A stretch of 64,000 nt of DNA from Aquincola tertiaricarbonis (GTDB lineage: Bacteria > Pseudomonadota > Gammaproteobacteria > Burkholderiales > Burkholderiaceae_C): the NCBI RefSeq assembly GCF_023573145.1, contig NZ_CP097635.1, positions 744,001 to 808,000 of the forward strand, in the 5' to 3' direction. Shown piece by piece: positions 12,467-31,005 of this stretch; the stretch's first letter is position 1; each line of letters begins with the position of its first letter. Under the pieces are notes generated by a model, which did not search any database, had not been told where the DNA came from, and worked only from the letters and a program-made list of their open reading frames with translations. The position numbers were made by a program, and so were the translations under genes.

Positions 12467-13366
12467 TTACGCGGCTTTGTTGACTTGGCCCGCGTGCCAG
12501 TTGGCTTCGAACTTCATGGGGCTGACGTAGCCCAGCGTGGAGTGCAGCCGCCGGTGGTTGTAGAACGTCAACCAGTCGATGACCTCGTCCATCGCCTCCC
12601 GGCGGGTAGCGAAGCGCTGTCCGTATAGCCGTCCCACCTTCAGGCTGCCCCACAGGCTCTCGGTGGGCGCATTGTCCCAGCAGTTGCCTTTGCGGCTCAT
12701 CGAGCTGCGCATCCCGTAACCCGCCAGCGCCGCCTGGAGGGCCTGGCTGCAATACTGACTGCCGCGGTCGCTGTGGAAGATCAGCCCTGGCTCGGGATGG
12801 CGCCTGAACCAGGCCATGCGCAGCGCGTCCGTCACCAGGCTCGCGCGCATGTGCGGCTGCATGCTCCAGCCCACCACCTGGCGGCTGAACAGGTCGATCA
12901 CCGCAGCCAAGTACAGCCAGCCTTCGTCGGTGGCGATGTAGGTGATGTCGCTGCTCCAGACCCGGTCGGGCGCTGCGGGCGTGAAGTCCCTGGCCAGCAG
13001 ATTTGCGGCCACAGGCAGCGCGTGCCGGCTGTCGGTGGTGACGACGAACTTCCTCTTGCCCCGCGCCCGGATGCCGTGCAGCTTCATCAGCCGCTGCACC
13101 CGGTCCTTGGCGACCCGCGCACCCCGGGCCAGCAGTTCCTTCCACACCCGCGGCCAGCCGTACTCGCCCTTGAATTCGGCGTGCAGCGCCCGGATGTGGA
13201 CCACCAGCGCCTCGTTGCTCAGCCGCGTTGGCCTCGGCCCCTGCGATCCTGTCCTTGTGCTGCGCCGCTGGTGCTCGAAGAACCCGCTGACGCTCACGCC
13301 CAGCACCGCGCACATCAGCGTCACCGGCCACACCGCCTTGAGCTTGTCGATCCAGGCGTACTTCAC
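12467..13366 (-). CDS. IS3-family transposase OrfB (IS407-like)
   Basis: A 299-residue DDE integrase-type transposase subunit. The catalytic residues lie in SSDITYIATDEGWLYLAA (first Asp), HSDRGSQYCS (second Asp) and DNAPTESLWGSLK (Glu). The C-terminus has the typical YNHRRLHSTLGYVSP. It starts with GTG in a TGA/GTG overlap arrangement with the end of native orfA. orfA is now 1.6 kb away because of the IS110 insertion, so the OrfAB fusion can no longer be made from this copy. Confidence 0.9.
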   Translation of the reverse strand: MKYAWIDKLKAVWPVTLMCAVLGVSVSGFFEHQRRSTRTGSQGPRPTRLSNEALVVHIRALHAEFKGEYGWPRVWKELLARGARVAKDRVQRLMKLHGIRARGKRKFVVTTDSRHALPVAANLLARDFTPAAPDRVWSSDITYIATDEGWLYLAAVIDLFSRQVVGWSMQPHMRASLVTDALRMAWFRRHPEPGLIFHSDRGSQYCSQALQAALAGYGMRSSMSRKGNCWDNAPTESLWGSLKVGRLYGQRFATRREAMDEVIDWLTFYNHRRLHSTLGYVSPMKFEANWHAGQVNKAA

Positions 13367-13399
13367 AGGGACTCCTTCGCGAAGTACGCCGTCGCTTTC

Positions 13400-14749
13400 C
13401 TAAGAAACACCGCCACTTGCTGGCTGCAGCGAGAAGCCAAAGCGGGCGGCACGCCGCTCCAGTTGCTTGACGACGCGCTCCCGGTATCGCTGCTCGTATT
13501 GATCGACGCCAGGGTCCTGATACTGCATGCCGAAGCGCATCGCTCGATAGAAGAGGATCGCCAGCTTGCGTGCTGTCGCAGTCACCGCTTTGGCCTTTCC
13601 TACACGTGCCGCCAAACGTCGGTAGAAGGCGCCGAGGGCCGTCTCGGTGCGCCCAACGTTGGTCGCCGCAAGGCGCAACTGGGACGTCAGACGACCGGAA
13701 CCGCGTCGAGTACGAGCCGAGAGCACCTTGCCGCCGCTGATCTTGCACCCTGGTGATAGACACAGCCATGAGGTGAAGTGTTTCTCGGAAGGCCAATTGC
13801 CAAGATTCGTGCCGCACTCCGCCACCAATGACAGCGCGAGGCTGGGCCCGAGACCATGGATCAAGGTCAGATCGGTCCCCGTGAGTTGATACAGCAGCGC
13901 GCGCACGTCGAACTTCGGCGCATTGGCTTGCTTGGTCTTGATGCGTGCGGCGCGCAACGGGGTTTCCGGTTCTGGCCGATCGGCGTTCAGAGCCCGCAGC
14001 GAGTTCTCAATCTGCCGATCACAGTCGCCGATGCGGTCTTGGTACGAATCGAACAGCGCGAGCGCCTGTGCCAATGCGAACACATGCTCTGGCTGGTAGT
14101 TGCCCACCAGCGCAGCTCGAATGGTCTGCAAGCTTTCTCGGCACCGGACATCGCGCATGGATGCCAGAACGTCGGGATTTCGCTCGCCCGACACGATCGC
14201 CCGAATGATCTTCAGACCCGTCACGCCACTGATGTCGCTAAGGACGTGGTGCAGCTGCAAGTTCATCAGCGTCAGGGCTTTCTGCATGTGCTGCATGTGG
14301 GCTGCTGCGTATTCCAGGTGGCGCTCCCGAATCCGCGTGTAGGCGCGCAGCGCCGCTATGTCCGGCGCTGGGTGGAAGCTCGCTCGCAGCAGCCCACACG
14401 CGTGCAAGCGCTGCAGCCACTGCGCGTCGTTGACGTCACTCTTGCGGCCGGGAACTGCCTTGCAGTCTCTTGCGTTGGCAAGCACGACGGTCAAGCCATG
14501 CGCTTCCAAGATCTCGTAGACCGGAACCCAATACACGCCGGTGGACTCCATCGCGACGGTCGTGATGCCGATCGAAGTCAGCCAGCTGGCCATCTGCTCG
14601 ATGTCGGCGGTGAAGCTGCCGAATGTGCGCACCGGATCGTCGCTGAGATCCGGTGGTACGGCCGCAACCTGAATGCGCGCGCCGATGTCGATGCCGGCCG
14701 CTCTGACGTTGACGATCGGCAGGCCGAGCGCCTTTCCACTCTTGGACAT
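13400..14749 (-). CDS. IS110-family transposase
   Basis: A 449-residue DEDD/serine-type transposase. The N-terminal RuvC-like half has AAGIDIGARIQVAAVPPD, then AMESTGVYWVPVYEIL and KSDVNDAQWL, which carry the acidic catalytic residues. The C-terminal Tnp_20 half contains LTLIHGLGPSLALSLVAECG and SWLCLSPGCKISGGKVLSARTRRG, with the serine region. The start at 14749 has a strong AGGAGG site seven bases upstream. A further in-frame extension upstream lies in the non-coding guide-RNA region and is unlikely to be translated. Confidence 0.92.
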   Translation of the reverse strand: MSKSGKALGLPIVNVRAAGIDIGARIQVAAVPPDLSDDPVRTFGSFTADIEQMASWLTSIGITTVAMESTGVYWVPVYEILEAHGLTVVLANARDCKAVPGRKSDVNDAQWLQRLHACGLLRASFHPAPDIAALRAYTRIRERHLEYAAAHMQHMQKALTLMNLQLHHVLSDISGVTGLKIIRAIVSGERNPDVLASMRDVRCRESLQTIRAALVGNYQPEHVFALAQALALFDSYQDRIGDCDRQIENSLRALNADRPEPETPLRAARIKTKQANAPKFDVRALLYQLTGTDLTLIHGLGPSLALSLVAECGTNLGNWPSEKHFTSWLCLSPGCKISGGKVLSARTRRGSGRLTSQLRLAATNVGRTETALGAFYRRLAARVGKAKAVTATARKLAILFYRAMRFGMQYQDPGVDQYEQRYRERVVKQLERRAARFGFSLQPASGGVS

Positions 14750-14973
14750 GGCAACCTCCTGTAGGCAAGGCGCCGGACAGGGGAGCGGATCAATCAATTT
14801 CCTAAACGGGGTCGCACGGGGCGCCACCACAGCTGGGTCCGCACAGTCCCCAGGGGCCACGTTTTTTGACGGGGACGAATGCCTCCAAAAAGCTGACGGC
14901 CAAGGTCCGGCCGAGTCAGTGTAGGCCGCTCAGTGTTTCTGTCCACTGGGACGGGATACGGTCACGATGGTCG
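14750..14973 (-). ncRNA. Predicted IS110 bridge-RNA region, copy 1
   Basis: The 224 bases between the element end and the transposase start are conserved in both copies and non-coding. In IS110 elements such as IS621 this position encodes the bridge RNA, whose loops pair with target and donor DNA. On the plus strand there is a run of six T at 14862-14867 and a run of five A at 14887-14891, 19 bases apart. These could pair with the GTAAAAA target seen at both insertion sites. The folding was not computed. Confidence 0.4.
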
Positions 14974-15244
14974 TTTTTACCCCGAGGACGCTCTTGAGCG
15001 CATGCATGTCCAGGTGCGCCTCGGCCAGCAGGTGCTTGAGCTTGGCGTTCTCCGCCTCCAGCTCGCGCAGCCGACGGGCGTCAGACGCCTCCATGCCACC
15101 GAACTTGGCGCCCCACTTGTAGAACGTGGCGTCCGACAACCCGCCCTTGCGGCAGATCTCCGCCACGGCCAAGCCGGCCTCCGCCTGCTTGATAAACCCG
15201 ATGATCTGTTCCTCGGTGAACTTGCTCTTCCTCATATCCGCCAT
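14974..15244 (-). pseudogene. IS3-family OrfA (IS407-like), 3' end replaced by IS110 sequence
   Basis: Residues 1-~90 are a normal OrfA: HTH of the transposase_8 type (KFTEEQIIGFIKQAEAG … EICRKGGLSDATFYKW) and the leucine-zipper segment LRELEAENAKLKHLLAEAHLDMHALKSVLGVK. The frame then enters the IS110 element at 14973 and ends there after 15 foreign residues. DNA-binding and dimerisation parts are complete, so the protein could still act as a dominant inhibitor. It cannot frameshift into OrfB. Confidence 0.85.
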
Positions 15245-15305
15245 TCTCCTGGTTGGCGGACTCCTGCTACTTCAGGCTGGTACGGCTGGAGGGGAGCAGG
15301 TCACA

Positions 15306-15724
15306 TCTAAACCTTCGAGCGCTTGAGTCGTCGAGGTCGGACGCTTGACATGAGTAGGGAGCATGGCCACTTTGCACCAGACCCTTAGTCGACCAAAAGT
15401 ACCGATCTCAAACGAGGACACCCTCACTCGAAAATCTCGATGATCGAATTCATAAGGACGTCGCTGAGTCTGGTGACGTAAAATTCCTTCTGCTATATAA
15501 CGATCAATGTCAGCGACCTGATCGCCTTGTAGTCCTAGTGAGTAGAACCGTCTTAAGTTTTCTGCATATGGCGCACCGACGTGGACATGGCCTTCATGCT
15601 CAGGAAACATGGAGAGAAACGTAGCATTCCAGCCGATTGTACGATTTTGATGGTCAAACGCACAAAATCCAACGTCCACACCATCCAAAGCGGCGCCAAT
15701 GGCAACAAGTAGAGCGTCTTTCAT
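15306..15724 (-). pseudogene. PAS-domain sensor fragment truncated by IS3 element 1
   Basis: About 140 residues with a PAS-like core (LDGVDVGFCAFDHQNRTIGWNATFLSMFP … FRVRVSSFEIGTFGRLRVWCKV). Proteins of this type usually continue into a GGDEF or histidine-kinase domain; here the frame is cut by the IS3 right end at 15305. Base composition is clearly lower in GC than the rest of the window, as in the two small genes beyond it. The ATG at 15724 lacks a good ribosome site, and an in-frame extension to 15874 has no recognisable content. Confidence 0.6.
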
Positions 15725-15931
15725 TATTGTTTTGAGTAACGTTCTGGATGAATTTTGCTTTGTTACACACGCATGGTACCGAAGTCTGCGCAGGAAGGAT
15801 AGGTGGGAGCTAAGATTTGAAATTAGTTGGCACTTACCGCGTAGGCTGGGCGAGGGGCGCGTTTCCAACGACACATGGTTGGTCCAGTGGGTTTGTTTGA
15901 CGCTCGTTGTGACTCTTTACAATCGCCTCAC

Positions 15932-16252
15932 ATGAAATTTGATTGGTCGAAAATTGATGGCGCCGATGCAAGTCAGCAGCTTGCTTGGTTACGTGCATGG
16001 GGAGTGCAGTTACAGCGCCATGTGGAACACGAGCGGTCTCTCCTGGAGATCGACGCTTGTGTGACAGGAGAACTTCTGTTGATGCAGCGGGAACGCTTGT
16101 TGCATGAGCTTCAAGCCGTCATCAAATCAGCCGAATGCGGTGTTTCTGATTTCCACCTTCGACTGTCGTCACTTCATATTGCGATGGGTTGTCAGCAGTT
16201 ACTTCAAACAAACGATATTGATCGGGTGACCTCCAAGGGCAGTGTTCAATGA
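15932..16252 (+). CDS. Hypothetical protein, 106 aa
   Basis: A short cytoplasmic, mainly helical protein (KFDWSKIDGADASQQLAWLRAW …) with no recognised domain. The ATG at 15932 was chosen over an upstream in-frame ATG because the sequence before it is divergent promoter-like DNA. Its stop overlaps the start of the next gene (ATGA), so the two are co-translated. The GC content is low compared with the metal genes. It is divergent from the PAS fragment. No function can be given. Confidence 0.55.
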   Translation: MKFDWSKIDGADASQQLAWLRAWGVQLQRHVEHERSLLEIDACVTGELLLMQRERLLHELQAVIKSAECGVSDFHLRLSSLHIAMGCQQLLQTNDIDRVTSKGSVQ

Positions 16253-16512
16253 AGGATGTGCAGGGCATCAACAACGTGGCCGACATGGAGGTCTGGGTAC
16301 AGGCACACGGCTATCCTCGCTTTCTTGAGGCGATGGTGGCTGGCGAATTCAAGGGTCATACCCTTCGGGTGGCCCGACAGTGGGACATTGAGCGTAGCGA
16401 GCGCCGCAAGCGCCGGTTGGTGATGGGACTGCTGGCACTTTTAGTGACTGGCGTCTTGGCTGCCTTGGTGATCTACATAGCCCCTATCCTCTTGACCTCA
16501 GCCCGCCAGTGA
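16249..16512 (+). CDS. Small single-pass membrane protein, 87 aa
   Basis: Begins in the ATGA overlap with the upstream 106-residue gene. Residues 1-~55 are soluble and charged (VQAHGYPRFLEAMVAGEFKGH …). They are followed by the basic ERRKRRLV and a membrane helix (MGLLALLVTGVLAALVIYIAPILL). The basic stretch before the helix predicts a cytoplasmic N-terminus. It may anchor its partner to the membrane. No family was recognised. Confidence 0.55.
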   Translation: MKDVQGINNVADMEVWVQAHGYPRFLEAMVAGEFKGHTLRVARQWDIERSERRKRRLVMGLLALLVTGVLAALVIYIAPILLTSARQ

Positions 16513-16682
16513 GCGGCATGCGGCATGTTGCCGCCGCGCCATTTCGTCTTGCTTACGCCGCAACCCGATGTGCATTTCCTGGACTAGGTGAAGCTTCAAA
16601 GGCTTCAGCCGTAAGGCATGTCTGACGGGTGTTATGGGTGATCCAAGACTTTCCGATGGATGGCCAACTTCCACAATGGCCT

Positions 16683-18820
16683 ATGGCTACCACTCCATCG
16701 CCTCAGCCCGCTGCTTCCTCGCAGACACGTGGGCGTCGTTCTAGCCGGCATGGCCGTTGGCTGCGGGTAGTCGGGACGGTTCTGGCAAGTGCATTTGTCG
16801 GTTTGGTCCTTTCCGAATTGGTGGGCTGGCGTTATCTGCGCGGCCCCATCGAGCGCTACGCCACCAAAGCGTTGGGCGTGCCGGTGCGCATCGCCGCGCC
16901 GTTCCGGCTGCATCTGCTGCGGCCGCCGCAGGCCAGCGCCGGCGCCTTGTGGGTGGGCGCCGCGCCCGGCAGCGAAGCGCCCTTCCTCGTCGACGCCCGG
17001 GAGGTGCTGCTGCGCTGGCGCTGGCGCGACGTCAACGACTTCCGCCATGGCGGGCCGCTGCGCGTGGTGGCGCTGCAGGCCGATCAGCTGGAGGCCCATG
17101 TGCTGCGGCCCAAGGAGGGCGTGGCCAGCTGGCAGTTCAAGACCGACAGCGAAGAGCCCAAGGTGGAACGCGATGCGCCGCGCGTGGAGCCGGTGCGGCT
17201 GCGCCAGGCCGCCATCCACGTGAACGACGCCGTCACCGAAGTGAAGGTGGAAGCCCATGCCCGCATGAACGAGAGCGCGCCTGCGGCAGGTGCGGCCTCG
17301 GCGCCGGCCTCGGCCGCCTCGTCGGCGGGCGCCGGCGCGGAGGGCGACTTCGGCCTCGTCGCCGACGCCGAGGGCACCTGGCGCGGCATGCCGGTGAAGC
17401 TGGAAGCGCGCTCGCCGCAGGTGCTGCCCCTGCTGGACGAACAGCAGCCCGCGCCGCTGCAGATCAAGGCCCAGGCGCTGATCGGGCGCGCGAGGCTGGC
17501 CTATGACGGCGTGGTGCATGATCCGCTGGGAGAACGCGGCATCGACGGCGAGGTGCGCATCAGCGGCCCTTCGCTGGGTGCGGTGGGCGAGGCGCTGAAC
17601 GTCACCCTGCCCACCACGCCGCCTTTCAGCCTGGCGGGCCAGCTGCGCCATACCGACCCCGTGTGGCACGTGGCCGTGCGCACGGCCACCATCGGCAAGA
17701 GCGCCTTGCGCGGCACCTTCGCCTACGACCCCCAGCCCGCCACGCCCAAGCTCACCGGCGAGCTGCTGGGCAGCGGCTCGACCTGGCCGACCTGGCGCCC
17801 GCGGTGGGTGCCGACGGCAAGCCTTCGACCCCGCCGCCCAACACCCGCAACGGTGGGCCGCGCGTGATCCCCGACCGCAGCTTCGACCTGCCTTCGCTCA
17901 GGGCGATGGACGCCGATGTGCGGGTGGCGCTGGACGAGCTGAACCTGAACACCAGCGCGCTGGAAACCCTGCGGCCGCTGGCCGGGCGCATCGTGCTGGA
18001 CGGCGGCGTGCTGCGCATCCAGGACATCCAGGCCACCACTGCCGGCGGCAGCGTGACCGGCTCCACCGGGCTGGACAGTACCGCCAAGCCGCCGCGCTGG
18101 GACACCGACCTGAAGCTGCGCGGCGTGGACGTGGCCGGTTGGCTGAAGGCCGCGCGCAAGGACAACGCCGACGTCAATGCCCGCAGCAGCAAGGCCAAGC
18201 TGGCGCGTGAGCGCGAATCCGCCCGCGACGGCAAGGGTCCGGTCACCGCCTACATCACGGGCGAACTGCAGGCCGAGTTCAAGCTGCGTGGCCAGGGCAA
18301 CTCCACCGCCCAGCTGCTGAGCACGCTGGACGGCAGCGCCCGCGCGGTGGTGCGCAACGGCACGCTGTCGCACCTGATCGTCGAAGCCCTTGGCATCGAC
18401 GTGGCGCAGGCATTGGGCGTGTTCGTCTCCGGCGACAACAGCCTGCCGCTGAACTGCGCCGTGGTGGCGATGGACGCCAGGCAGGGTGTGCTGACGCCCA
18501 GCGTGGCGGTGCTGGACACGCGCGACAGCACCGTGGCGCTGAGCGGCACCATCGACCTGAAGAACGAGTTGCTCAACCTGCGCAGCGAAACCAAGCCCAA
18601 GGACTTCAGCTTCGCAACGCTGCGCTCGCCGCTGCTGCTGACGGGCAGCTTCTCGTCGCCTGAGGTGGGCGTGGCCTAGGGCCCGATCGCGGCCCGCGTG
18701 GCCGCCGGTGCGGCGCTGGCCGCGGTGGCCGGCCCGCTGGCGGCGTTGTTGCCGCTGCTGGACCCGGGCAGCGGCGACAAAGTCGACCACTGCAAAACGC
18801 TGGTCAACGAAAAGAAGTGA
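16683..18820 (+). pseudogene. AsmA family protein, frameshifted and with an internal stop
   Basis: AsmA-type proteins are inner-membrane-anchored and span the periplasm to affect outer-membrane lipid or protein assembly. The N-terminal anchor (LRVVGTVLASAFVGLVLSELVGW) and AsmA body are read in one frame to GELLGS near 17773. There one C appears to be lost (GGCAGCGGCTCG instead of GGCAGCCGGCTCG), and the remainder (LDLADLAPAVGADGK …) continues in the next frame. A second lesion is an in-frame TAG at 18677, after which the normal C-terminus (GPIAARVAAGAALAAV … KTLVNEKK) runs to 18820. Two independent lesions mark it as dead. Confidence 0.82.
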
Positions 18821-18855
18821 CTGTCAGTCACAGTCACTCTGCGGCATTCGCTGGA

Positions 18856-18883
18856 TGGTGCCGGCTGCAGGGATTCGAACCCC
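18856..18883 (-). other. tRNA 3'-end-like sequence
   Basis: On the minus strand GGGTTCGAATCCC, then TGC, then AGCCGGCACCA resembles a T-loop followed by a Thr-type acceptor end with CCA. There is one base too many between T-stem and acceptor stem, and no tRNA body upstream. It is best read as a remnant of an attachment site or tRNA gene, not a working tRNA. Confidence 0.3.
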
Positions 18884-19090
18884 ACCACGCCCGTTCTTCC
18901 CGCCCCGTCTCATGCCTTGGCTGCAGTCCATGGCATGCCATCGTTGTCCCCAGGAAGCCTGGGCAAGTCGGTGTAGCGTGTTAGCAGGCACCTAGCGCAG
19001 TTTACGGTGAGACAAGCACTGCCTTGGCCACACCAAGGTCCTCCTTGAGTTTTTGACGCGTGCCATAGCGCTGTCCTGACGACCAAGGTA

Positions 19091-22000
19091 TCAGCTTCGA
19101 AAACTGCTTGGTAGCCAAACACGAATCAATGAGATCAGGCGGTCGAGGTCCACCGGCTTGGACAAGTAATCGCTCATGCCGGCTTGTAAACACTGCTCCC
19201 GGTCATCGAGCATCGCCTTGGCGGTCAGCGCGATGACAGGTAGCTTGCGGAACCGCTCATCTGCCCGCAAGCGCCGTGTGGCCTCCAGCCCGTCCATGAC
19301 TGGCATCATGACGTCCATGAGCACGATCTCGATGTTCGGGTCCGCGTCCAGCTTGGCCAGAGCCTCCTGGCCATGGCGCGCGATGACCACGTGCATGCCT
19401 CGCTGTTCGAGGGCTCCGCTGAGGGCAAAGATGTTGCGAACGTCATCATCTACCAGCAGCAGACGACGCCCTTCGAGCGCTTGGTCTCGACCCCGCGCAG
19501 CGCGCAAGAGACGTTGCTGAGCCTCTGACAGCTGGGACTCCACCTGGTGCAGGAACAGGGTCACTTCATCCAGCAGCCGCTCGGGGGAACGAGCCCCCTT
19601 GATGATGATCGATCTCGAGTAACGTGCCAGCCCAGCTTCTTCCTCACGCGTCAAAACTCGGCCCGTGTAAACGATGACCGGAGGGAAGCTGCTCAGGTTG
19701 TCCCCCGTCATTTTTTCCAGCAGTTGCTCGCCCGTCATGTCGGACAGGCTCAGGTCGACCACCATACAGTCATAAACCCGCTGTCGCAGCAGGGCCAGTG
19801 CCTCTTCTCCGGTGCCCACGGCGTCAATCTCAATGCCTTCGCCTTGGATCAGTTGAACCACACTGTCGCGCTGTCGCTCGTCGTCTTCTACAACAAGCAC
19901 TCGCTTATGCGGATGATCAAGTTTGTCCCCGATACGTTGGAAGACGGCCTGTAACTCCTCCAGGGAAACCGGTTTGACTGCATAGTCCACTGCACCCAGC
20001 GGCAGGGCCACGCGGCTCAAGTCCTCGCCTGCCACAACATGCACAGGGATGTGCCGGGTTTGCGGGTCGTCCTTGAGGCGCTGCAAGACGACCAGGCCGG
20101 AAACGTCGGGCAAGTGCATGTCCAACAGCACCGCGTCAGGCTGCTGGCCAAGCGCCAGCGCCAAGCCAGCGGCCGCCGTGTGCGCAACGATCGCACGGAA
20201 ACCTGCGTCGTGCGCCAGCCTGTACAACATCTGCGCAAACTGGATGTCGTCTTCCACCACCAGCACCGTGCGCTGGCGATCTGTTTGATCTCGATCGTCG
20301 GCAAATGCTGGCTGGATTTCAGTGACAGGCACGAGGTGGCCAGGAGGAAGCGCCGATTGCGGGGCGGCCGGAACCCGTGGGGCTGCCTGACGGACGTCCA
20401 GATCAAGGGCAGCGTCAGTCGGTTCGCTTGGCAATGCTTCAGAGGTGTTCTGCGCAGTGGGGAGATGCAGCTCTAGAGGAAGGGTCACGACAAAGCGGCT
20501 GCCCTGCCCCGGGATGCTGCTTAGGGTCAACGTCCCCCCCAGCAGTCCCGCCAACTTGCGCGAAATGGCCAAGCCCAGCCCTGTGCCGCCGAAGCGACGG
20601 GCGATGCCGGCGTCTGCCTGCTGGAACGCTTCAAAGACCAGGGTTTGATGCTCGGGGGCGATCCCGATGCCAGTGTCTTCCACCGAAATCGCCACTTGAC
20701 GTTCGTCCGCCTTGTTCACCCGAAGGGCTATCTGGCCAGACTCGGTGAACTTGAGCGCGTTGGAAAGGAGGTTTTTGAGTATCTGCTCCAGCCTCAATCG
20801 GTCGGTCACCAGAACGGGGGAAACGTCTGCATCCACCTGGACCAGGAATTCCACCTTTTTTTGTTCAGCCTGAGGTCTGAAGATGTCGCGAAGGCTGCCC
20901 ATCACGTCCGCTAGGCCGACGGGACCTGGTTCAAGCTGCAGCTGGCCGGCTTCTACCTTCGACAGGTCCAAGATGTCGTTGATGAGGGCTAGGAGGTCGC
21001 TGCCGGCGGAGTGGACAGTCCAAGCGAAGCGCACTTGATCTTCGTGGAGGTTGCCAAGCCGGTTCTCCCCCAGCAGCTTAGCCAAGATCAAGATGCTGTT
21101 GAGAGGTGTTCGCAGCTCGTGCGACATGTTTGCCAAGAACTCGCTCTTGTAGCGGCTGGCCTGTTGCAGGGCCTCGGCACGTGTCTTCAGTTGTACCTGC
21201 GCCTCGCGCAGCGCCTCGTTTTGGTCATCCAACGCCGCCGCCTGCATCGCCAAACGTTGGTTGGTGAGCTCCAACTCGGCTTGCTGACGTTCGAGCTCTG
21301 CCTGTTGACGTTCAAGCTCGCTTTGCGACTTGCGCAGCTGACCGGACTGAACCTCCAGCGCCTCGTTGCTGCTGCGCAGCTCCTCTTGCTGCACTTCCAG
21401 CTCTTCATTGAGCTGTTGCGACTCTTCGAGGCTGCGCTGGAGGTCCTCCCGGTACTGGGCCCCAGCCAGTGCATGTCCTACGGTCTCGGCGATCATCGTC
21501 AGCAGCTCAGCCGTGTAGGCGGGCGGCGCTTCATTGAAGGCCAGCTCCAACACGCCGTTGACACGGCCCTCCCGTGTCAACGGCGCCAAGTGCACGCGAT
21601 CAGGGGGTGAGCTTCCAAAGCCGGTGTGGATGCGAAAGTGCCCGCTGCCGAGGGCGTTCAATTCCCGGGGGCGGCCGTCGGCAGCCACCTGCACCACCAT
21701 GCCGGCGTCGGCACTGATCTGGCCGTCACTCTCGGTGAGCCGCACACCATGCACAGCCACGGTCTCAGGCTTTCCTCGACTGGTCACGTGCAGCGCACCC
21801 AGGAGGGCACCCGTCGACCTGGCCAGCGCCGCAAGGGTTCGCTTGCCGATCTCGTCCTGCCTGAGCTCACCGGCCAGCTGCTCAGCCAAGTCGCCCTGTA
21901 GCCCCCGCAAGGTGACTTGACGCTGCAGGTGCTCAGAGGACTCCTGGTAGCGCCGCAGTGCAGTGCCATACGTGGCACTGAGCTGCAGCGTTTGGCGGCG

Positions 22001-22468
22001 GCCTGTCCACGCCACTGCGGCGCTGAGCAGCAGCAGCACCACGGAGAATCCAACGGTGACGGACCAGGTCATTCGACGAGCCGCATCGCTGCGTTCATCT
22101 CGCAAGTTCTCCTCAGTGTCGATGAACGCTGCCCACTGCCGCCGCATGCCATCGAACATCAGCTTGCCAGTGTCCGCTCTCAGCATCGCCTCGACGGACT
22201 GCCCACGCCGCCGCTGCTCGATCAGGGTCTGCGGCCAGATGAAGCGGCCGCGTTCGAGCCGCTTGGTCAGCAGGCACATGCCGTCGCCGTCGCTCCACAG
22301 TAGCTTGATGAGGTCGCCCCGCCGTCCGCGGAACGCGAACACGTGGCCGGCATAGGGGTCTTCGGCCAGTACCGTGTGCACCTTGGCGGCCAGTGAGTCG
22401 ATACCGCAGCGCATGTCGGTGACGCCGGCGGCCAGCCAGACACGGGTTCCGGCACGCGGGCCGATCAT
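19091..22468 (-). CDS. Chimeric IS66 TnpB / hybrid sensor histidine kinase (CHASE3-GAF-HisKA-HATPase-three REC)
   Basis: One open frame of 1125 codons. Residues 1-80 are the first part of IS66 TnpB ([20 protein letters not shown] …). They are joined in frame at 22229 to the second half of a CHASE3-like sensor ([15 protein letters not shown]), one membrane helix ([18 protein letters not shown]), a GAF-like domain, and a long coiled coil with [17 protein letters not shown] repeats. HisKA ([10 protein letters not shown]), HATPase ([17 protein letters not shown]) and three receiver domains (VVEDD, VVEDD, VDDD) follow. The native first helix and signal-input half are lost. The catalytic and phosphorelay parts have no stop or frameshift. 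It could be transcribed from IS66 sequences. Confidence 0.8.
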
Positions 22469-22981
22469 GGCGTCTGGCGCAGCGCGCGCAGCACGCTGCA
22501 CAGACTGGCCTCGTCGACTGGGCCGCGCAGGCGCAGTTGCACGCCAGCTACTTCCAACTCGATCACGCCGCCGCGCGGCGAGGGCCTGGCCGGCGCGGTC
22601 GGCAGCACCGGCATGGTCGCCGAGGGCATCGCGAGCGCTGCGTCCGCTGGCGCGACTTCCACCGGCAGCAGCACGGTCGCAGCCGTTCGGGGTGAAGCGG
22701 CTCGCAGATGCTCCCGGCGCCACTTGAACAGCATGTTGGCGTTGACGCCGTTGTCCAGCGCGATGGCCGATACCGACGCGCCGGGCTGCAGGCTCTGGCG
22801 GACCAACTCTTCCTTGAACCCGCGCTCGTGCTGCCGCCGCTGGCGCCTGGACGCGTCTTGCTCACTCTTCATGGTGTGCACCATCTCCACCAAGCGCACA
22901 CCTCCAAGCGGGTGGCGCTTGGGTTCAGATGCTTGGCATCTGTGGGCGATCCGGCAAGGGTGGGGGTGGTCGGAGTATTAC
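22229..22981 (-). mobile_element. IS66-family element remnant (left 753 bp)
   Basis: Nearly identical to the first part of the complete IS66 copy at 30145: the terminal GTAATACTCCGACCACCCC, tnpA, and 80 codons of tnpB. Identity stops at CTGGCCGCAG (22229-22238), after which sensor-kinase coding sequence begins. The right part, tnpC and the right terminal repeat are gone. The likely cause is a deletion that removed the rest of the element together with the 5' end of the kinase gene. Confidence 0.88.
22465..22899 (-). CDS. tnpA: IS66 family accessory protein TnpA (OrfA)
   Basis: About 144 residues with an HTH of the IS66 TnpA type ([45 protein letters not shown]). A Pro/Ala linker and a C-terminal [13 protein letters not shown] segment follow. 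The start is uncertain: GTG at 22899, TTG at 22893 behind GGAGG, or ATG at 22872. Its last codons overlap the tnpB ATG at 22468. It is almost identical to the copy at 30227. Without tnpC this element cannot move itself. Confidence 0.85.
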
Positions 22982-22983
22982 CG

Positions 22984-23094
22984 ATCAACTCATACCTGGG
23001 AAACAATGGTCCCTGCCCCCCCGGATCGAACCTCGGAGACGACGCGCCCTTCAACGAAACCTTCACACCGGCGACTTTGGCCGCCTGCCAGTGA
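22984..23094 (+). pseudogene. Possible 3' remnant of an unrecognised gene beside the IS66 end
   Basis: Directly outside the IS66 terminal repeat, 36 codons (INSYLGNNGPCPPG … ending TFTPATLAACQ then stop) have a protein-like composition. They might be the end of a gene truncated by the element. The family is not recognised, and chance cannot be excluded. Confidence 0.25.
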
Positions 23095-23188
23095 AGCGCG
23101 AGCTGGCTATGCCTGCACGGCGTCCACCAGCTCCACCATGCACCCGTTCACAGGCGGCGAACATTGGGCGCCGAACAGGGTCTCCGGC

Positions 23189-23704
23189 TCACAGTGATGG
23201 GCGGCGCTTTGGAGGTTCGACCATGACGTCGTCGTCCGGACTGTCGGCGCCTGTTCGTTCACGCGCCCAGGCCTCCGCCAAAGCGGTCACCTTGGCGGTC
23301 GGCGTTCCGGCCTCCAATGCTGCAGCTACGCTCCTGCCCCCAAGGGCTCCGTGGTCGCGCAGCCAGAACATCAGCTTCTCGATGTCTTGGAGCTGCCGCA
23401 GCGCGCGGCAGATCGCACCTGCGGTGAAACGATCCAGGCTAAGCAACGCCTTGGGGACGTACTCGCTGCCGTCGATGGTGATGCTGATCACCTCGCTACT
23501 TGCGGTGGCGGTCGCCAGGGTCTCCTGGGGGATCCCCCACGCCTGCCCTAGTTGCGGACCAGGCACCACGAGCCCTTCCTCGATCCATCGGGCGCGCGCC
23601 GCTGCGCCCCGGGTCTTAGCAGCTACCAGGCCGCCTTGTGCCGCCCCTTGATCCTTGATCTCCCCAGGCAACATCGTGCGCAAACCTCCTGCAGGGAACC
23701 TCAC
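23189..23704 (-). CDS. Hypothetical protein, antitoxin Xre/MbcA/ParS-like C-terminus
   Basis: About 171 residues, or 161 from the internal ATG at 23674. The middle has an HTH-like stretch (RWIEEGLVVPGPQLGQAWGIPQETLATA). The C-terminal half (LSLDRFTAGAICRAL … KLMFWLRDHGALGGRSVAAALEAG) resembles the toxin-binding domain of Xre/MbcA/ParS antitoxins, with the characteristic LGG. It begins 23 bases after the stop of the small gene at 23727-23966, so the two form a pair. No toxin of the RES type is visible next to it. Assignment is tentative. Confidence 0.5.
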   Translation of the reverse strand: MRFPAGGLRTMLPGEIKDQGAAQGGLVAAKTRGAAARARWIEEGLVVPGPQLGQAWGIPQETLATATASSEVISITIDGSEYVPKALLSLDRFTAGAICRALRQLQDIEKLMFWLRDHGALGGRSVAAALEAGTPTAKVTALAEAWARERTGADSPDDDVMVEPPKRRPSL

Positions 23705-23726
23705 CAGGCGAAGAACATGCAGACGT

Positions 23727-23966
23727 TCACTGTCGACGCGGAGCTCTGGAAGGGAATGGCTGTTCAGCCGGAGCGCGATCGATGGCCGACTCGCGCTCGA
23801 CCGCGTCGATCTCAGCTTCCATGGCGGCCATGGCCTGTTCGAGAAGGACGCTTGGCCGCGGATCGTGCAGCGCGTCCTGGATCTCGGCGGCGAGCCATCG
23901 GTTGTGAGCTGCTGTCTGATGGCCGGTTCGCATCAGTTCGGCTTGACGGGCGTCGCAGAGGCTCAT
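23727..23966 (-). CDS. Small antitoxin/stability-determinant-like protein, 79 aa
   Basis: Short acidic protein (SLCDARQAELMRTGHQTAAHNRWLAAEIQDAL then DPRPSVLLEQAMAAMEAEIDA). Its size and the segment HNRWLAAEIQDALHDPRPSV…EQAMAAMEA recall small antitoxins encoded upstream of RelE/ParE toxins. The ATG at 23966 fits a GAGAA site. The gene that follows is not a RelE/ParE toxin, so it may be an orphan or part of a different type of pair. Family identity is inferred from pattern only. Confidence 0.45.
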   Translation of the reverse strand: MSLCDARQAELMRTGHQTAAHNRWLAAEIQDALHDPRPSVLLEQAMAAMEAEIDAVERESAIDRAPAEQPFPSRAPRRQ

Positions 23967-24482
23967 GTCGTTCTCGGAGGTGGTCGAGTTTTGGCGACGG
24001 TTCCATCGCACTCAAGGTGGAAGCATCATGCGCATTTGACTGACCCGGCGCAACGGCCGTGTGCGGTGGGCGCGCAATTCAGTAAGAATGCCGGCTCGGA
24101 TCGCCAGTCGTCCAAGCCGGCCACGGAACTCGTGGCCCTACGATTCGATGCCTCCGCCAGGGAGGCGGAGCGGCCCACGACAGCAAGGCGTTGAGGTCTT
24201 TGGCCAGAGCGGCCCAAGGACACAGCCGCCACCTTGCGCCACCGCAGCGCAGTAGTCGAAAACAGGTCGAATGAGCGACTTTAATGTTTATGTCAACTCG
24301 GAGCGGGCATAGCCGAACGGACGCGTGGTAGTGCACCCAGGTTTTGCAGTAGCGTGGGTGGATGCAGTAGAAGAACCGCATCTAAGTCCTTGTCGCGCCT
24401 AGAAACGCCGATTTGGTGCGACTGGCCCAAAACCGGCTCCGGTAGTCTTACTGCACGAGGCGAGCACTCCGGAAGTCTTACT
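23967..24482. other. Intergenic region left of IS3 element 2
   Basis: About 515 bases without a convincing gene and with lower GC in its right half. It contains a short direct repeat, CTCCGGTAGTCTTACT near 24438 and CTCCGGAAGTCTTACT near 24470, which differ at one base. Nothing else was recognised. The promoter of the leftward antitoxin-like pair is probably at its left edge. Confidence 0.4.
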
Positions 24483-24538
24483 TGTTGACGATCACTGAAA
24501 ACTGACCCACCGGGGGTGCGGCGGATTTCTTGGACTGG

Positions 24539-25438
24539 TTATGCAGCGAGCCCGAGAAGCTTTCGGTGCTCGATGGGGCTGCGGAAGCCCAGTGAACTCT
24601 TGATCCGTTCTTCGTTGTACCAGCGGATGTAGGCGTCCAGCGTCTGGATGAACTGGTCGACGCTCGTGGTCAGCCAGTCTCTGCGGTAGAACAGCTCCGT
24701 CTTCAGGCGACCGAAGAAGCCTTCACATGCTGCGTTGTCCGGTGAGTAGGCCTTGCGCGACATGGAGCGCACCAGCTTGGCTGCTGCCATGCGGGACAGC
24801 CATCCGGGCCAGCGGTAGTGAGCGCCACGATCTGAGTGGACCACCGGCCGATCGGTGCTGGCATCAACTGTCTCGATGGCGGCATCCAACATCGTGTTGA
24901 CGAGCTCTGCGTCGGGGCGAGTGCCGATCGACCAGCTCACGACCATTCCATCGAAGCAGTCGATCATCGGCGACAGGTACACCTTGCCTGCGGCAATCTG
25001 GAATTCGGTGATGTCCGTCAGCCACTTCTTGTTCGGCGCTGTCGCACTGAAGTCGCGCTCAAGCAGGTTGACTGGCGCAGGACTGATCTCGCCAAGATAC
25101 GAACCGTAGCGGCGGCGCTTTGGCAGGGCAGCAACAAGGCTCTCTTGCTTCATGAGGCGCTGGACGACCTTCTCGGACACGCCGATGCTCTGCCGGTTCA
25201 GCGAAGCCTGCATTCGACGGTATCCATAGCAACGATGGTTGTGCTCGAAGATGTCGACCATGGCGCGACGCACCCCGGCGTACTTGTCCACAAGGTTGAG
25301 CCGAGCTCGGTGATAGAAGTAGGAACTGCGCGCCATGCCCACCTCTCCCAAGAGCTCCGCCAGCGAGTACCTATGCTTCAGGGCATCGACCAGTTGGGCC
25401 TTCTCCTGGTTGGTCAGGAGCCTGCGGTCGATGCCCAT
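24539..25438 (-). CDS. IS3-family transposase OrfB (IS150-like)
   Basis: A 299-residue DDE transposase subunit. It begins GIDRRLLTNQEKAQLVDALKHRY, has the HTH_21 region (HRCYGYRRMQASLNRQ), and has catalytic segments LTDITEFQI, HSDRGAHY and NAACEGFFGRLK. The end is YNEERIKSSLGFRSPIEHR. An in-frame extension through the IS110 end is an artefact of the insertion. Separation from orfA prevents OrfAB formation by frameshifting. Confidence 0.9.
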   Translation of the reverse strand: MGIDRRLLTNQEKAQLVDALKHRYSLAELLGEVGMARSSYFYHRARLNLVDKYAGVRRAMVDIFEHNHRCYGYRRMQASLNRQSIGVSEKVVQRLMKQESLVAALPKRRRYGSYLGEISPAPVNLLERDFSATAPNKKWLTDITEFQIAAGKVYLSPMIDCFDGMVVSWSIGTRPDAELVNTMLDAAIETVDASTDRPVVHSDRGAHYRWPGWLSRMAAAKLVRSMSRKAYSPDNAACEGFFGRLKTELFYRRDWLTTSVDQFIQTLDAYIRWYNEERIKSSLGFRSPIEHRKLLGLAA

Positions 25439-25445
25439 CTCTTTC

Positions 25446-26795
25446 CTAAGAAACACCGCCCGCTGCTGGCTGCAGCGAGAAGCCAAAGCGGGCGGCACGC
25501 CGTTCCAGTTGCCTGACGACGCGCTCTCGGTATCGCTGCTCGTATTGATCGACACCAGGGTCCTGATACTGCATGCCGAAGCGCATGGCTCGATAGAAGA
25601 GGATCGCCAGCTTACGTGCCGTGGCAGTCACCGCCTTGGCCTTTCCTACACGTGCCGCCAAACGTCGGTAGAAGGCGCCGAGGGCCGTCTCGGTGCGCCC
25701 GACGTTGGTCGCCGCCAGCCGCAACTGGGACGTCAGACGACTGGAACCGCGTCGAGTACGCGCCGAGAGCACCTTGCCGCCACTGATCTTGCACCCCGGT
25801 GATAGACACAGCCAAGAGGCGAAGTGCTTCTCGGACGGCCACTTGCCAAGATTTGTGCCGCACTCCGCCACCAAGGACAGCGCGAGGCTGGGCCCGAGAC
25901 CATGGATCAAGGTCAGATCGGTCCCCGTAAGTTGATACAGCAGCGCGCGCACGTCGAACTTCGGCGCGTTGGCTTGCTTGGTCCTGATGCGTGCGGCGCG
26001 TAAGGGCGTTTGCGGTTTTGGCCGATCGGCGTTCAGAGCCCGCAGCGAGTTTTCGATCTGCCGATCACAGTCGCCGATGCGGTCTTGGTAGGAATCGAAC
26101 AGCGCGAGCGCCTGTGCCAACGCGAACACATGCTCTGGCTGGTAGTTGCCCACCAGCGCAGCTCGAATGGTCTGCAAGCTTTCTCGGCACCGGACATCGC
26201 GCATGGATGCAAGAACGTCGGGATCTCGCTCGCCTGACACGATCGCTCGAATGATCTTCAGACCCGTCACGCCACTGATGTCGCTCAGGACGTGGTGCAG
26301 TTGCAAGTTCATCAGCGTCAGGGCCTTCTGCATGTGCTGCATGTGGGCTGCTGCGTATTCCAGGTGGCGCTCCCGAATCCGCGTGTAGGCGCGCAGCGCC
26401 GCGATGTCCGGCGCTGGGTGGAAGCTCGCTCGCAGCAGCCCGCACGCGTGCAAGCGCTGCAGCCACTGCGCGTCATTGACGTCACTCTTGCGGCCGGGAA
26501 CTGCCTTGCAGTCTCGCGCGTTGGCAAGCACCACGGTCAAGCCATGCGCTTCCAAGATCTCATAGACCGGAACCCAGTACACCCCGGTGGACTCCATCGC
26601 GACGGTCGTGATGCCGATCGACGTCAGCCAGTTGGCCATCTGCTCGATGTCGGCGGTGAAGCTGCCGAATGTGCGCACCGGATCGTCGCTCAGCTCCGGC
26701 GGCACGGCCGCAACCTGGATGCGCGCGCCGATGTCGATGCCGGCCGCTCTGACGTTGACGATCGGCAGGCCGAGCGCCTTTCCACTCTTGGACAT
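25446..26795 (-). CDS. IS110-family transposase
   Basis: 449 residues, almost identical to the protein at 13400-14749 with a handful of substitutions (for example PPELSDD for PPDLSDD, and KPQTPL for EPETPL). All acidic motifs (GIDIGA, MESTGVYW, KSDVNDAQW) and the C-terminal HGLGPSLALS and SPGCKISGGKVL segments are kept. The same AGGAGG site precedes the ATG. Both copies therefore appear able to make active enzyme. Confidence 0.92.
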   Translation of the reverse strand: MSKSGKALGLPIVNVRAAGIDIGARIQVAAVPPELSDDPVRTFGSFTADIEQMANWLTSIGITTVAMESTGVYWVPVYEILEAHGLTVVLANARDCKAVPGRKSDVNDAQWLQRLHACGLLRASFHPAPDIAALRAYTRIRERHLEYAAAHMQHMQKALTLMNLQLHHVLSDISGVTGLKIIRAIVSGERDPDVLASMRDVRCRESLQTIRAALVGNYQPEHVFALAQALALFDSYQDRIGDCDRQIENSLRALNADRPKPQTPLRAARIRTKQANAPKFDVRALLYQLTGTDLTLIHGLGPSLALSLVAECGTNLGKWPSEKHFASWLCLSPGCKISGGKVLSARTRRGSSRLTSQLRLAATNVGRTETALGAFYRRLAARVGKAKAVTATARKLAILFYRAMRFGMQYQDPGVDQYEQRYRERVVRQLERRAARFGFSLQPAAGGVS

Positions 26796-27019
26796 GGCAA
26801 CCTCCTGTAGGCAAAGCGCCGGACAGGGGAGCGGATCAATCAATTTCCTAAACGGGGTCGCACGAGGCGCCACCACGGCTGGGTCCGCACAGTCCCCAGG
26901 GGCCACGTTTTTTGACGGGGACGAATGCCTCCAAAAAGCTGACGGCCACAGTCCGGCCAAGTCAGTGTAGGCCGCTCAGTGTTTCTGTCCACTGGGACGG
27001 GGCGCGGCCCCGATGGTCG
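26796..27019 (-). ncRNA. Predicted IS110 bridge-RNA region, copy 2
   Basis: 224 non-coding bases between element end and transposase start, at the position where IS110 elements encode the bridge RNA. The T6 and A5 runs seen in copy 1 are present unchanged, whereas the outermost ~20 bases vary. Conservation of the inner part in both copies is consistent with a structured RNA. No structure was computed. Confidence 0.4.
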
Positions 27020-27648
27020 TTTTTTACGATTTCATTCGCCTTCTCCAGGAGATCGTGCTCGAGTTGAAGGCGGCGAAGGTCGCGACGAAGCGCTTCCAGC
27101 TGCTGTTCCAGCTCTGCCCGTTCTGGGCCCGGTGGAGACTCTTTAGAGCGTTTCATGGATGCTGATGCCTCGGCGCCGAGTAGCTGCTTCTTCCAGTTGT
27201 ACAGCGTGGGCCTGCAGACGCCCATTTCTTGGGCCACCTCCAACGCGCTGCCATGCCGGGTGCACAACGCGATGACTGCGGCGCGCTTGACAGCCAGCGG
27301 AGCCTGCACTGGGCACTTGCCAACAACGCGCCTGCCCACCTCTGGACGCAGCTCTTGAACCCACAGAGGAAGTGATCCACGCCCAGGATAGCCCAGCGCC
27401 TTGATCGTCGCGGACACGCTGCAACCATGCTCGACGAAGTGCTCCACCGCTGCCACCTTTTGGGCTTGGCTGTACCTTGGCTTGCGGACGTAGCCTGGCG
27501 CCAGGTCACGTCGCTGCTCGTACTCTCGATGCCAAGCCTTCAATGAATTCTTGGTTGGGTAGCCGAGCTGTCGGATCGTCGCGCGCACTCGCATACCGAG
27601 CTTGATGTAGAGCCTGACCGCTTTCATTCGGTCCTCGTACGAATACAT
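27020..27648 (-). pseudogene. IS3-family OrfA (IS150-like), 3' end replaced by IS110 sequence
   Basis: About 205 native residues with two HTH-like repeats (SYEDRMKAVRLYIKLG … and KRAAVIALCTRHGSALEVAQEMGVCRPTLYNWKK) and the C-terminal zipper ELEQQLEALRRDLRRLQLEHDLLEKANEIVK. The frame enters the IS110 element directly after the slippery GTAAAAAA and ends about 20 codons later. It is complete as a DNA-binding protein but uncoupled from OrfB. Confidence 0.85.
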
Positions 27649-27892
27649 GAACTACCTCCTGGTAGTCCAAGATTTCATCCGCACCCCCGCCGGGTCAGTT
27701 CGAGGCGATCGTCAACACGCATGGGACGCGTAGCGCAATGAAGCAGTGAACATGAAGTCTCCAGACAACGTACCGGCGGATTGGTGTCAGGCTCGAGCAA
27801 CCGGAGGCGAGCGAAGCTCGCGCATGGAAGACGAGCGCGACCGATGCGCCGAAGCGACCGGGACGGTCGTCAGCGCAACGTCGTCTGGAAGA

Positions 27893-30049: not shown

Positions 30050-30226
30050 CTCGGCCGCTGCCCAGCCCCCTCACCCGCGCCGCACATCTGCCAGTTTCTT
30101 CAAGCCTCGCATGCCGATCTGGGGCACGCTCGCAGGCATCTTCAGTAATAGTCCGACCACCCCCACCATTGCCTGATCGCCCACAGATGCCAAGCATCTG
30201 GACCCAAGCGCCACCCGCTTGGAGGT

Positions 30227-30661
30227 GTGCGCTTCGTGGAGATGGTGCACACCATGAAGAGTGAGCAAGACGCGTCCAGGCGCCAACGGCGGCAGCACGA
30301 GCGCGGGTTCAAGGAAGAGTTGGTCCGCCAGAGCCTGCAGCCGGGCGCGTCGGTATCGGCCATCGCGCTGGACAACGGCATCAATGCCAACATGCTGTTC
30401 AAGTGGCGCCGGGAGCATCTGCGAGCCGCTTCACCCCGAACTGCTGCGACCGTGCTGCTGCCGGTGGAAGTCGCGCCAGCGGACGAAGCGCTCGCGATGC
30501 CCTCGGCGACCACGCCGGTGCTGCCGACCGCGCCGGCCAGGCCCTCGCCGCGCGGCGGCGTGATCGAACTGGAAGTGGCTGGCGTGCAACTGCGCCTGCG
30601 CGGCCCGGTCGACGAGGCCAGTCTGTGCAGCGTGCTGCGCGCGCTGCGCCAGACGCCATGA
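30227..30661 (+). CDS. tnpA: IS66 family accessory protein TnpA (OrfA)
   Basis: 144 residues, nearly identical to the remnant copy at 22465-22899. It has an HTH ([32 protein letters not shown]) and a C-terminal IS66 OrfA tail. The stop overlaps the tnpB ATG at 30658. In IS66 elements TnpA and TnpB are needed with TnpC for transposition, but their biochemical roles are unclear. Confidence 0.88.
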
Positions 30662-31005
30662 TCGGCCCGCGTGCCGGAACCCGTGTCTGGCTGGCCGCCG
30701 GCGTCACCGACATGCGTTGCGGTATCGACTCACTGGCCGCCAAGGTACACACGGTACTGGCTGAGGACCCGTATGCCGGCCACGTGTTTGCGTTCCGCGG
30801 ACGCCGAGGCGACCTCATCAAGCTGCTGTGGAGCGACGGCGACGGCATGTGCCTGCTGACCAAGCGGCTCGAACGCGGCCGCTTCATCTGGCCGCAGGCC
30901 GACAGCGGCAGCGTGATGCTCAGCGTGGCCCAGCTCTCGATGCTGTTGGAGGGCATCGACTGGCGCCGTCCCGAGCGCACCTGGCAGCCACGCGCGGCGG
31001 CCTGA
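30658..31005 (+). CDS. tnpB: IS66 family TnpB (Orf2)
   Basis: 115 residues, the full-length version of the domain fused to the sensor kinase at 22468. Family pattern: [25 protein letters not shown] … [34 protein letters not shown] … [13 protein letters not shown]. It overlaps tnpA by four bases. Length is normal for the family. Confidence 0.92.

Follow-up and report, generated by a model that had tools for sequence, protein, structure and literature searches.

Why would a transposable element settle at the very point where elements of another family change reading frame? This question is raised by a stretch of the Aquincola tertiaricarbonis genome (7.11 Mb) comprising positions 744,001 to 808,000 of contig NZ_CP097635.1 (G000:C1:744001-808000), hereafter the window, 64,000 nucleotides in which two copies of an IS110-family element, W1 and W2, lie between orfA and orfB sequences of IS3-family elements. 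In these copies and their relatives we found a preference for such sites and for one orientation of insertion, compensatory changes in an RNA structure upstream of the recombinase gene, and concordance between the guides in this RNA region and the target. The elements probably represent an RNA-guided IS110 lineage that is programmed for the IS3 frameshift A-run and inserts at IS3 junctions of several groups.

The two copies and their IS3-family hosts

The element span was counted from the first C past the A-run through the end of AGGAA. The copies, their recombinase genes and the flanking IS3-family sequences are located in the window as follows.

13397..14973, minus strand: IS110-family element copy W1, 1577 bp, with the AA core at its left (14974-14975)
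25443..27019, minus strand: IS110-family element copy W2, 1577 bp, with the AA core at its left (27020-27021)
13400..14749, minus strand: W1 recombinase gene, 449 aa, PF01548 and PF02371
25446..26795, minus strand: W2 recombinase gene, 449 aa, PF01548 and PF02371
14976..15271, minus strand: IS407-like orfA, cut by W1 at the GTAAAAA run
12467..13396, minus strand: ISMpe1-like orfB side of W1 (annotated-length open reading frame 12467-13366)
24502..27698, minus strand: IS150-like IS3-family element carrying W2 (ends approximate)
27022..27651, minus strand: IS150-like orfA, cut by W2 at the GTAAAAAA run
24539..25442, minus strand: IS150-like orfB side of W2

W1 and W2 are of equal length and 95% identical. 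An earlier note on this stretch had placed them correctly but given their length as 1579 bp, a value reached only when the AA core is counted at both ends. A third copy, W3 (L005 among our loci), was found outside the window at G000:C1:870954-872554, where 1601 bases are identical to W2. On the orfA side the junction reads GTAAAAA followed by the C of the element at W1 and GTAAAAAA followed by C at W2, as the earlier note had described for this run.

A-runs at the orfA/orfB junction are programmed frameshift signals in IS3-family elements. An A-run plus G was present at the corresponding place in uninterrupted IS150-like, ISMpe1-like and IS407-like relatives: the relatives of the two W1 flanks read TAAAAAGG (L135) and CAAAAAAAGC (L134), and that of the W2/W3 host (L136) carries seven A and G at the junction. 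In L135 the A-run is a place of overlap between orfA and orfB, which are read in different frames.

The earlier note had assigned the hosts to an IS407-like and an IS150-like element, which holds for W2 in the latter, whereas W1 does not lie in a single IS407-like element. Its orfA side is IS407-like (85% amino acid identity to L135) and its orfB side ISMpe1-like (72% to L134), so that the W1 flanks belong to two different IS3 groups and those of W1 and W2 together to three. Because the flanks differ in IS3 group, W1 probably arose by recombination between two IS110 copies located in different IS3 elements. W2 and W3 each split orfA from orfB in copies of the same IS150-like element, and the two IS150-like::IS110 compounds differ only in the outermost ∼20 nt at either end; W2 and W3 may therefore not be independent insertions. 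No uninterrupted copy of this IS150-like element was found in a search of its own genome. The compound may have moved as one, its transposase provided in trans; alternatively, the two copies may each have been struck at the same base.

The IS150-like copies (∼24476-27730 in the window, and that of W3) are bordered by their own short inverted sequences, TGTTGACGATC/GATCGTCAACA at the W2 copy and TGTCGGCGCCGA/TCGGCGACAACA at the W3 copy, and look as if the IS150-like element inserts into hairpins such as terminators or repeats like the repetitive extragenic palindromic (REP) elements. The W2 region is also bracketed by inverted repeats of 759 nt (22226-22984 and 30142-30900; 96% complementary, 7157 nt apart), and inspection by eye suggested that the open reading frames at 22226-22984 are IS66-type genes.

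Both recombinases exceed the Pfam cut-offs for PF01548 (DEDD RuvC-like) and PF02371. The published motif of the C-terminal domain in the IS110 family is G--P----SG (PMC11187229), to which the PGCKISG readable in both proteins is a partial match that retains P----SG and has C in place of the leading G. A PDB search returned no sequence relative at an E-value of 1 or below. Non-coding DNA of 224 bp precedes the gene, and 3 bp separate the stop codon from the right end, which is the published layout of the IS110 group as opposed to IS1111. An 8-bp sub-terminal inverted repeat, AGAAACAC/GTGTTTCT, is perfect in W1 and W2, with its left member ∼33 bp from the left end. In the IS110 group such repeats are described as absent, short or imperfect.

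26979..26986, minus strand: W2 sub-terminal inverted repeat, left member AGAAACAC, 8 bp (W1: 14933-14940)
25449..25456, minus strand: W2 sub-terminal inverted repeat, right member GTGTTTCT, 8 bp (W1: 13403-13410)

Insertion sites of relatives in other genomes

A protein scan of genome contigs yielded 51 loci, and searches of the family, order, class and plasmids added more, with 16 plasmid places fetched. The in-group was defined by transposase identity of at least 60% to W2, plus L053, which has 50% identity but the in-group type of non-coding region. After removal of eight repeats of counted insertions (L005, L093, L095, L019, L036, L060, L068 and L109), 67 loci were obtained, 64 of them with at least one scorable flank. 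Only three IS3 relatives supplied the orfA and orfB probes for the flanks; among the 52 right flanks searched, four were too short or masked and were left unscored. The out-group consisted of 18 loci with elements just outside the clade (46–52% identity), 17 of which were scored per side.

Expected-strand orfA was detected in 39/59 left flanks of the in-group and expected-strand orfB in 35/48 right flanks. One or both were found on the expected strand at 46 of the 64 loci, and both sides matched in 28/43, while no out-group flank had an IS3 match (0/17 left, 0/17 right). Chance is not a plausible account of the IS3-junction sites, given 46/64 in the in-group against 0/17 in the out-group. Pfam searches of the adjoining frames found HTH_Tnp_1 in 39/50 left frames (9 of the 59 were under 30 aa and kept out) and rve in 31/46 right frames. 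The claim of the earlier note that the IS110 element targets a constrained motif common to different IS3 elements was thus borne out by these relatives, and also by the RNA guides described below, which match the target.

A protein tree built on 63 rows placed the in-group in a clade of 47 (support 100/100). The probes scored 35 of these 47 as IS3 insertions and the 12 others were nested within the clade, among them three with IS3-like junctions (L011, L028 and L052) and one without readable ends (L034). By eye, IS3-like junctions were recognized at five of the 18 loci that the probes had left negative (L011, L028, L050, L052 and L059), and rve domains were present in L067, whose right flank is of the L011 kind. 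The other 13 had no IS3-like junction or a doubtful one (L012–L015, L023, L026, L033, L037, L040, L043, L049, L066 and L089).

In Massilia timonae (L023 and L052), stretches of N lie directly to the right of the element and make the right flanks unscorable. Four copies on Cupriavidus necator plasmids (L012, L013, L014 and L015) are located in a repeated hairpin-like sequence (..GATCGGTAACT / CCGTTTGTGCTGAACCGC..) that is not IS3, and a search for the identity of this repeated target established none; the terminal 24 bp of the right end are present in tandem in L012. A relative with 62% identity (e.g. L113 and L117) is common in plasmid records, with 61 from Citrobacter and 20 from Enterobacter among 229 matching records, and the L117 copy has orfA at its left and an IS66 gene close at its right. 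Among viral contigs, the protein scan gave two pattern stretches, neither of them a relative, and the pattern of right end plus target gave no match.

The predicted bridge RNA and its guides

Upstream of the recombinase gene, the non-coding DNA contains the following predicted features.

14773..14919, minus strand: W1 predicted bridge-RNA region (extent as aligned, predicted ends)
26819..26965, minus strand: W2 predicted bridge-RNA region (extent as aligned, predicted ends)
26933..26939, minus strand: W2 right target guide GCTTTTT (W1: 14887-14893)
26908..26916, minus strand: W2 left target guide with core GTCAAAAAA (W1: 14862-14870)
26845..26852, minus strand: W2 left donor guide TTTAGGAA, repeating the right end (W1: 14799-14806)

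Upstream regions of 35 elements were aligned, and they fold into a bridge-RNA-like loop with compensatory changes, the consensus having an outer and an inner stem that enclose an internal loop. The target guides sit in the loop between two of the three helices named from this fold, and in W1 and W2 the loop carries GCUUUUU on its 5' strand and GUCAAAAAA on its 3' strand. In the three helices, 99.3% of cells were paired, 32 cells were changed on both sides (8.9 in shuffles) and seven pairs showed such two-sided change (3.3 in shuffles), all counted on the same alignment from which the structure was derived. The pairing was lost on sliding.

The 3' strand of the loop matches the left flank and the AA core, and its 5' strand is complementary to the core and the right flank. 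When flanks were permuted among elements, none of 10,000 permutations reached the observed match of left guide to left flank (58 pairs; mean 4.71 against 4.45 of 9). With right guide and right flank (45 pairs; e.g. 2.82 against 2.34 of 4), the count was again zero of 10,000 in five of six settings, and the sixth gave P 0.0005. The permutations ignore relatedness, which inflates both tests, and the data had been seen when the guide registers were picked. The right guide had been placed differently at first (P 0.0039–0.0128); that placement was wrong in several loci and was replaced by one tied to the left guide, after which L037, having no guide, was left out of the test.

The most informative cases are four elements whose junctions depart from the A-run (L030, L040, L043 and L089), in each of which flank and guide have changed in parallel. 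L030 is an IS3 junction with the run interrupted by GC, and its guide matches; L040 and L043 are two elements of one Glomeribacter assembly. In the C. necator copies, the right flank and the right guide are both unlike the rest, with a mismatch. Copies without the motif, which the earlier note had named as evidence against such targeting, thus exist; the guide has changed with the site in the four elements above, an explanation that does not extend to L023, L026 and L111. The insertion sites of out-group elements (L061–L065, L070, L097, L102 and L105) follow sequences such as GGGTTAGCG or GATGAGCG, which is also how the left guides of L061, L065, L070 and L102 read, so that guide–target matching seems, from these sequences, to hold beyond the clade.

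In many copies the segment taken as the left donor guide tracks the right end, reading TCAGGAA in L113 and, in the out-group, TTGAGAG, TCATGAG (L073) or TCAGGAG (L099). The script used to locate it missed the segment in L008, L038, L064, L102 and L105, and no right donor guide could be assigned.

A number of observations weigh against an RNA-guided lineage aimed at IS3, in addition to the limits of the permutation and covariation counts stated with them. No IS3 match was found at 18/64 scorable loci, about 13 of which also had no IS3-like junction. The protein of L023 is the same as that of the IS3-inserted L024, but its left neighbour is different and its right side is masked, while L026 has no IS3 match despite a guide of the usual type. 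In L111 the flank has changed without a change of guide, the fit of the right guide to the right half is incomplete in many copies (mean 2.8 of 4, wobble included), and in W1 and W2 a C of the left guide stands opposite a T of the flank. In L058 and L065, and in part in L117, the donor guide does not agree with the right end. As for the structure, of five covariation measures the one for further pair types was not unusual (60/500 shuffles), the W2 RNA folded alone was no better than shuffles (z −0.01), and no Rfam family matched the RNA region.

An alternative account, which we regard as unlikely but worth serious consideration, is that the guides specify a short A-run only, and that insertions survive in IS3 elements, which are abundant and dispensable, but are lost from other places, with no evolved fit to IS3. 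In most copies the guide consists almost wholly of A/T, and L023 and L026 lie at A-runs without an IS3 match. Such runs also exist elsewhere, since 30 sites in the Aquincola genome fit TRAAAAAGSC and none of them is in IS3 by the three probes, a weak control in that the pattern does not fit the W1 and W2 junctions exactly; either such runs alone are seldom struck or insertions elsewhere do not last. However, IS3 elements are a small share of a genome and yet provide 46 of the 64 scorable sites, always in matching register and orientation, and the retargeted L030 is still at an IS3 junction, with a guide that matches its interrupted run.

It is quite improbable that the recombinase protein itself chooses the target by reading A-tract DNA while the RNA-like region has another role. 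Most guides are of low complexity and the RNA reading is drawn here from sequence, but the way guide and flank have changed together in L030, L040, L043 and L089, the permutation tests for both guides, and the published role of the upstream region in IS621 and ISEc21 (PMC11208160 and PMC11187229) all argue for the RNA. Finally, that the copies in this genome are one insertion copied or recombined, and so uninformative on target choice, is hardly credible. In its favour, W2 and W3 agree base for base across the entire IS150-like element, and the W1 flanks are chimeric. Duplication, which the earlier note had put forward as counter-evidence, may hold for W2 and W3, but it does not for W1 and W2, whose flanks come from three IS3 groups, and the same type of site recurs in relatives of other genera.

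Proposed mechanism and comparison with known systems

The RNA-guided mechanism that we favour is the one published for IS110 elements (PMC11208160 and PMC11187229). Under it, the non-coding DNA that precedes the recombinase gene would encode a bridge RNA (seekRNA) whose target loop would pair with both halves of the target, with the segment repeating the right end as the donor guide. The guides of W1, W2 and most relatives spell the A-run plus G at which IS3 elements change frame from orfA to orfB, and a circular form of the element would recombine into this site in several IS3 groups, with a single orientation. Insertion would separate orfA from orfB and should abolish OrfAB. By analogy with IS621 and ISEc21, the RNA would be made, bind the recombinase and guide insertion. 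The separation of orfA from orfB is seen directly in the window. We infer that it inactivates the IS3 host and that the site is preferred as one which IS3 elements cannot afford to lose; the same goes for the 'safe site' and the 'disabling' of which the earlier note had spoken.

More tentatively, with our doubts slightly outweighing our confidence, the clade may specialize on the IS3 frameshift signal as a target that is hard to escape, since a change in the A-run would cost the IS3 element its OrfAB transposase. It might then act as a natural brake on IS3 elements, and its guides might be rewritten in nature for new targets. It may also ride on the split IS3 element with transposase supplied in trans, a possibility raised by the presence of the IS150-like::IS110 compound twice.

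If these proposals are correct, an RNA-guided mobile element is aimed at a functional signal within another class of mobile element, and this targeting has been kept over a clade found mainly in Proteobacteria. Recoding signals would be linked to RNA-guided recombination, IS3 elements would be predicted to be under pressure from IS110 parasites, and copies with a joint change of guide and target would be natural reprogramming experiments.

We compared W1 and W2 with known systems. ISEc21, an IS110-family element, targets another conserved segment of IS3-family transposases (Siddiquee 2024, PMC11187229), so that an IS110 element aimed at an IS3 transposase segment is already known as a kind. 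ISEc21 resembles W1 and W2 in having the RNA upstream of the gene, a target in IS3 transposase genes and an RNA that matches both target strands; it differs in the order of the guides, its bottom-strand match being 5' of its top-strand match, which is reversed in W1 and W2, and in its protein of 358 aa compared with 449 aa (PMC11187229). IS621 (Durrant 2024, PMC11208160) also has an upstream RNA with an internal target loop, two guides sharing a core, and a donor guide, and it has the same DEDD and C-terminal Pfam domains. In contrast to W1 and W2 at IS3 junctions, IS621 inserts in REP elements, and its left guide is at the 5' side of the loop rather than the 3' side (PMC11208160); the want of an assignable right donor guide in W1 and W2 is a further difference.

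With the right guide at the 5' side of the loop and the left guide at the 3' side, W1 and W2 are unlike the IS110 group (ISEc21 and IS621) and like IS1111. An antisense RNA was set aside, as its guide order would fit none of IS621, ISEc21 and IS1111. Elements of the IS1111 group (ISEc11, ISPa11 and ISKpn4) have the top-strand match 5' of the bottom-strand match (PMC11187229), as in W1 and W2, and the 8-bp sub-terminal inverted repeat readable in W1 and W2 may be a further likeness to this group; IS4321/IS5075, also of the IS1111 group, likewise use another transposon as their target, namely the ends of the Tn21 family. Unlike W1 and W2, with their RNA upstream of a 449-aa protein, IS1111 elements usually have the RNA downstream of a protein of 330–350 aa (PMC11187229), and the position of the left repeat of W1 and W2, ∼33 bp from the left end, is another difference from IS1111.

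A literature search by title and abstract found no IS110 element at an IS3 frameshift site, with many journals and supplements outside its coverage, and a named ISfinder element with this target may exist. As far as we have seen, the aim at the frameshift site, the retention of this target across a clade, the cases of retargeting in nature, and an IS1111 guide order combined with an IS110-type upstream RNA are new. This last combination bears on the relationship between IS110 and IS1111 and on how bridge RNAs are to be read.

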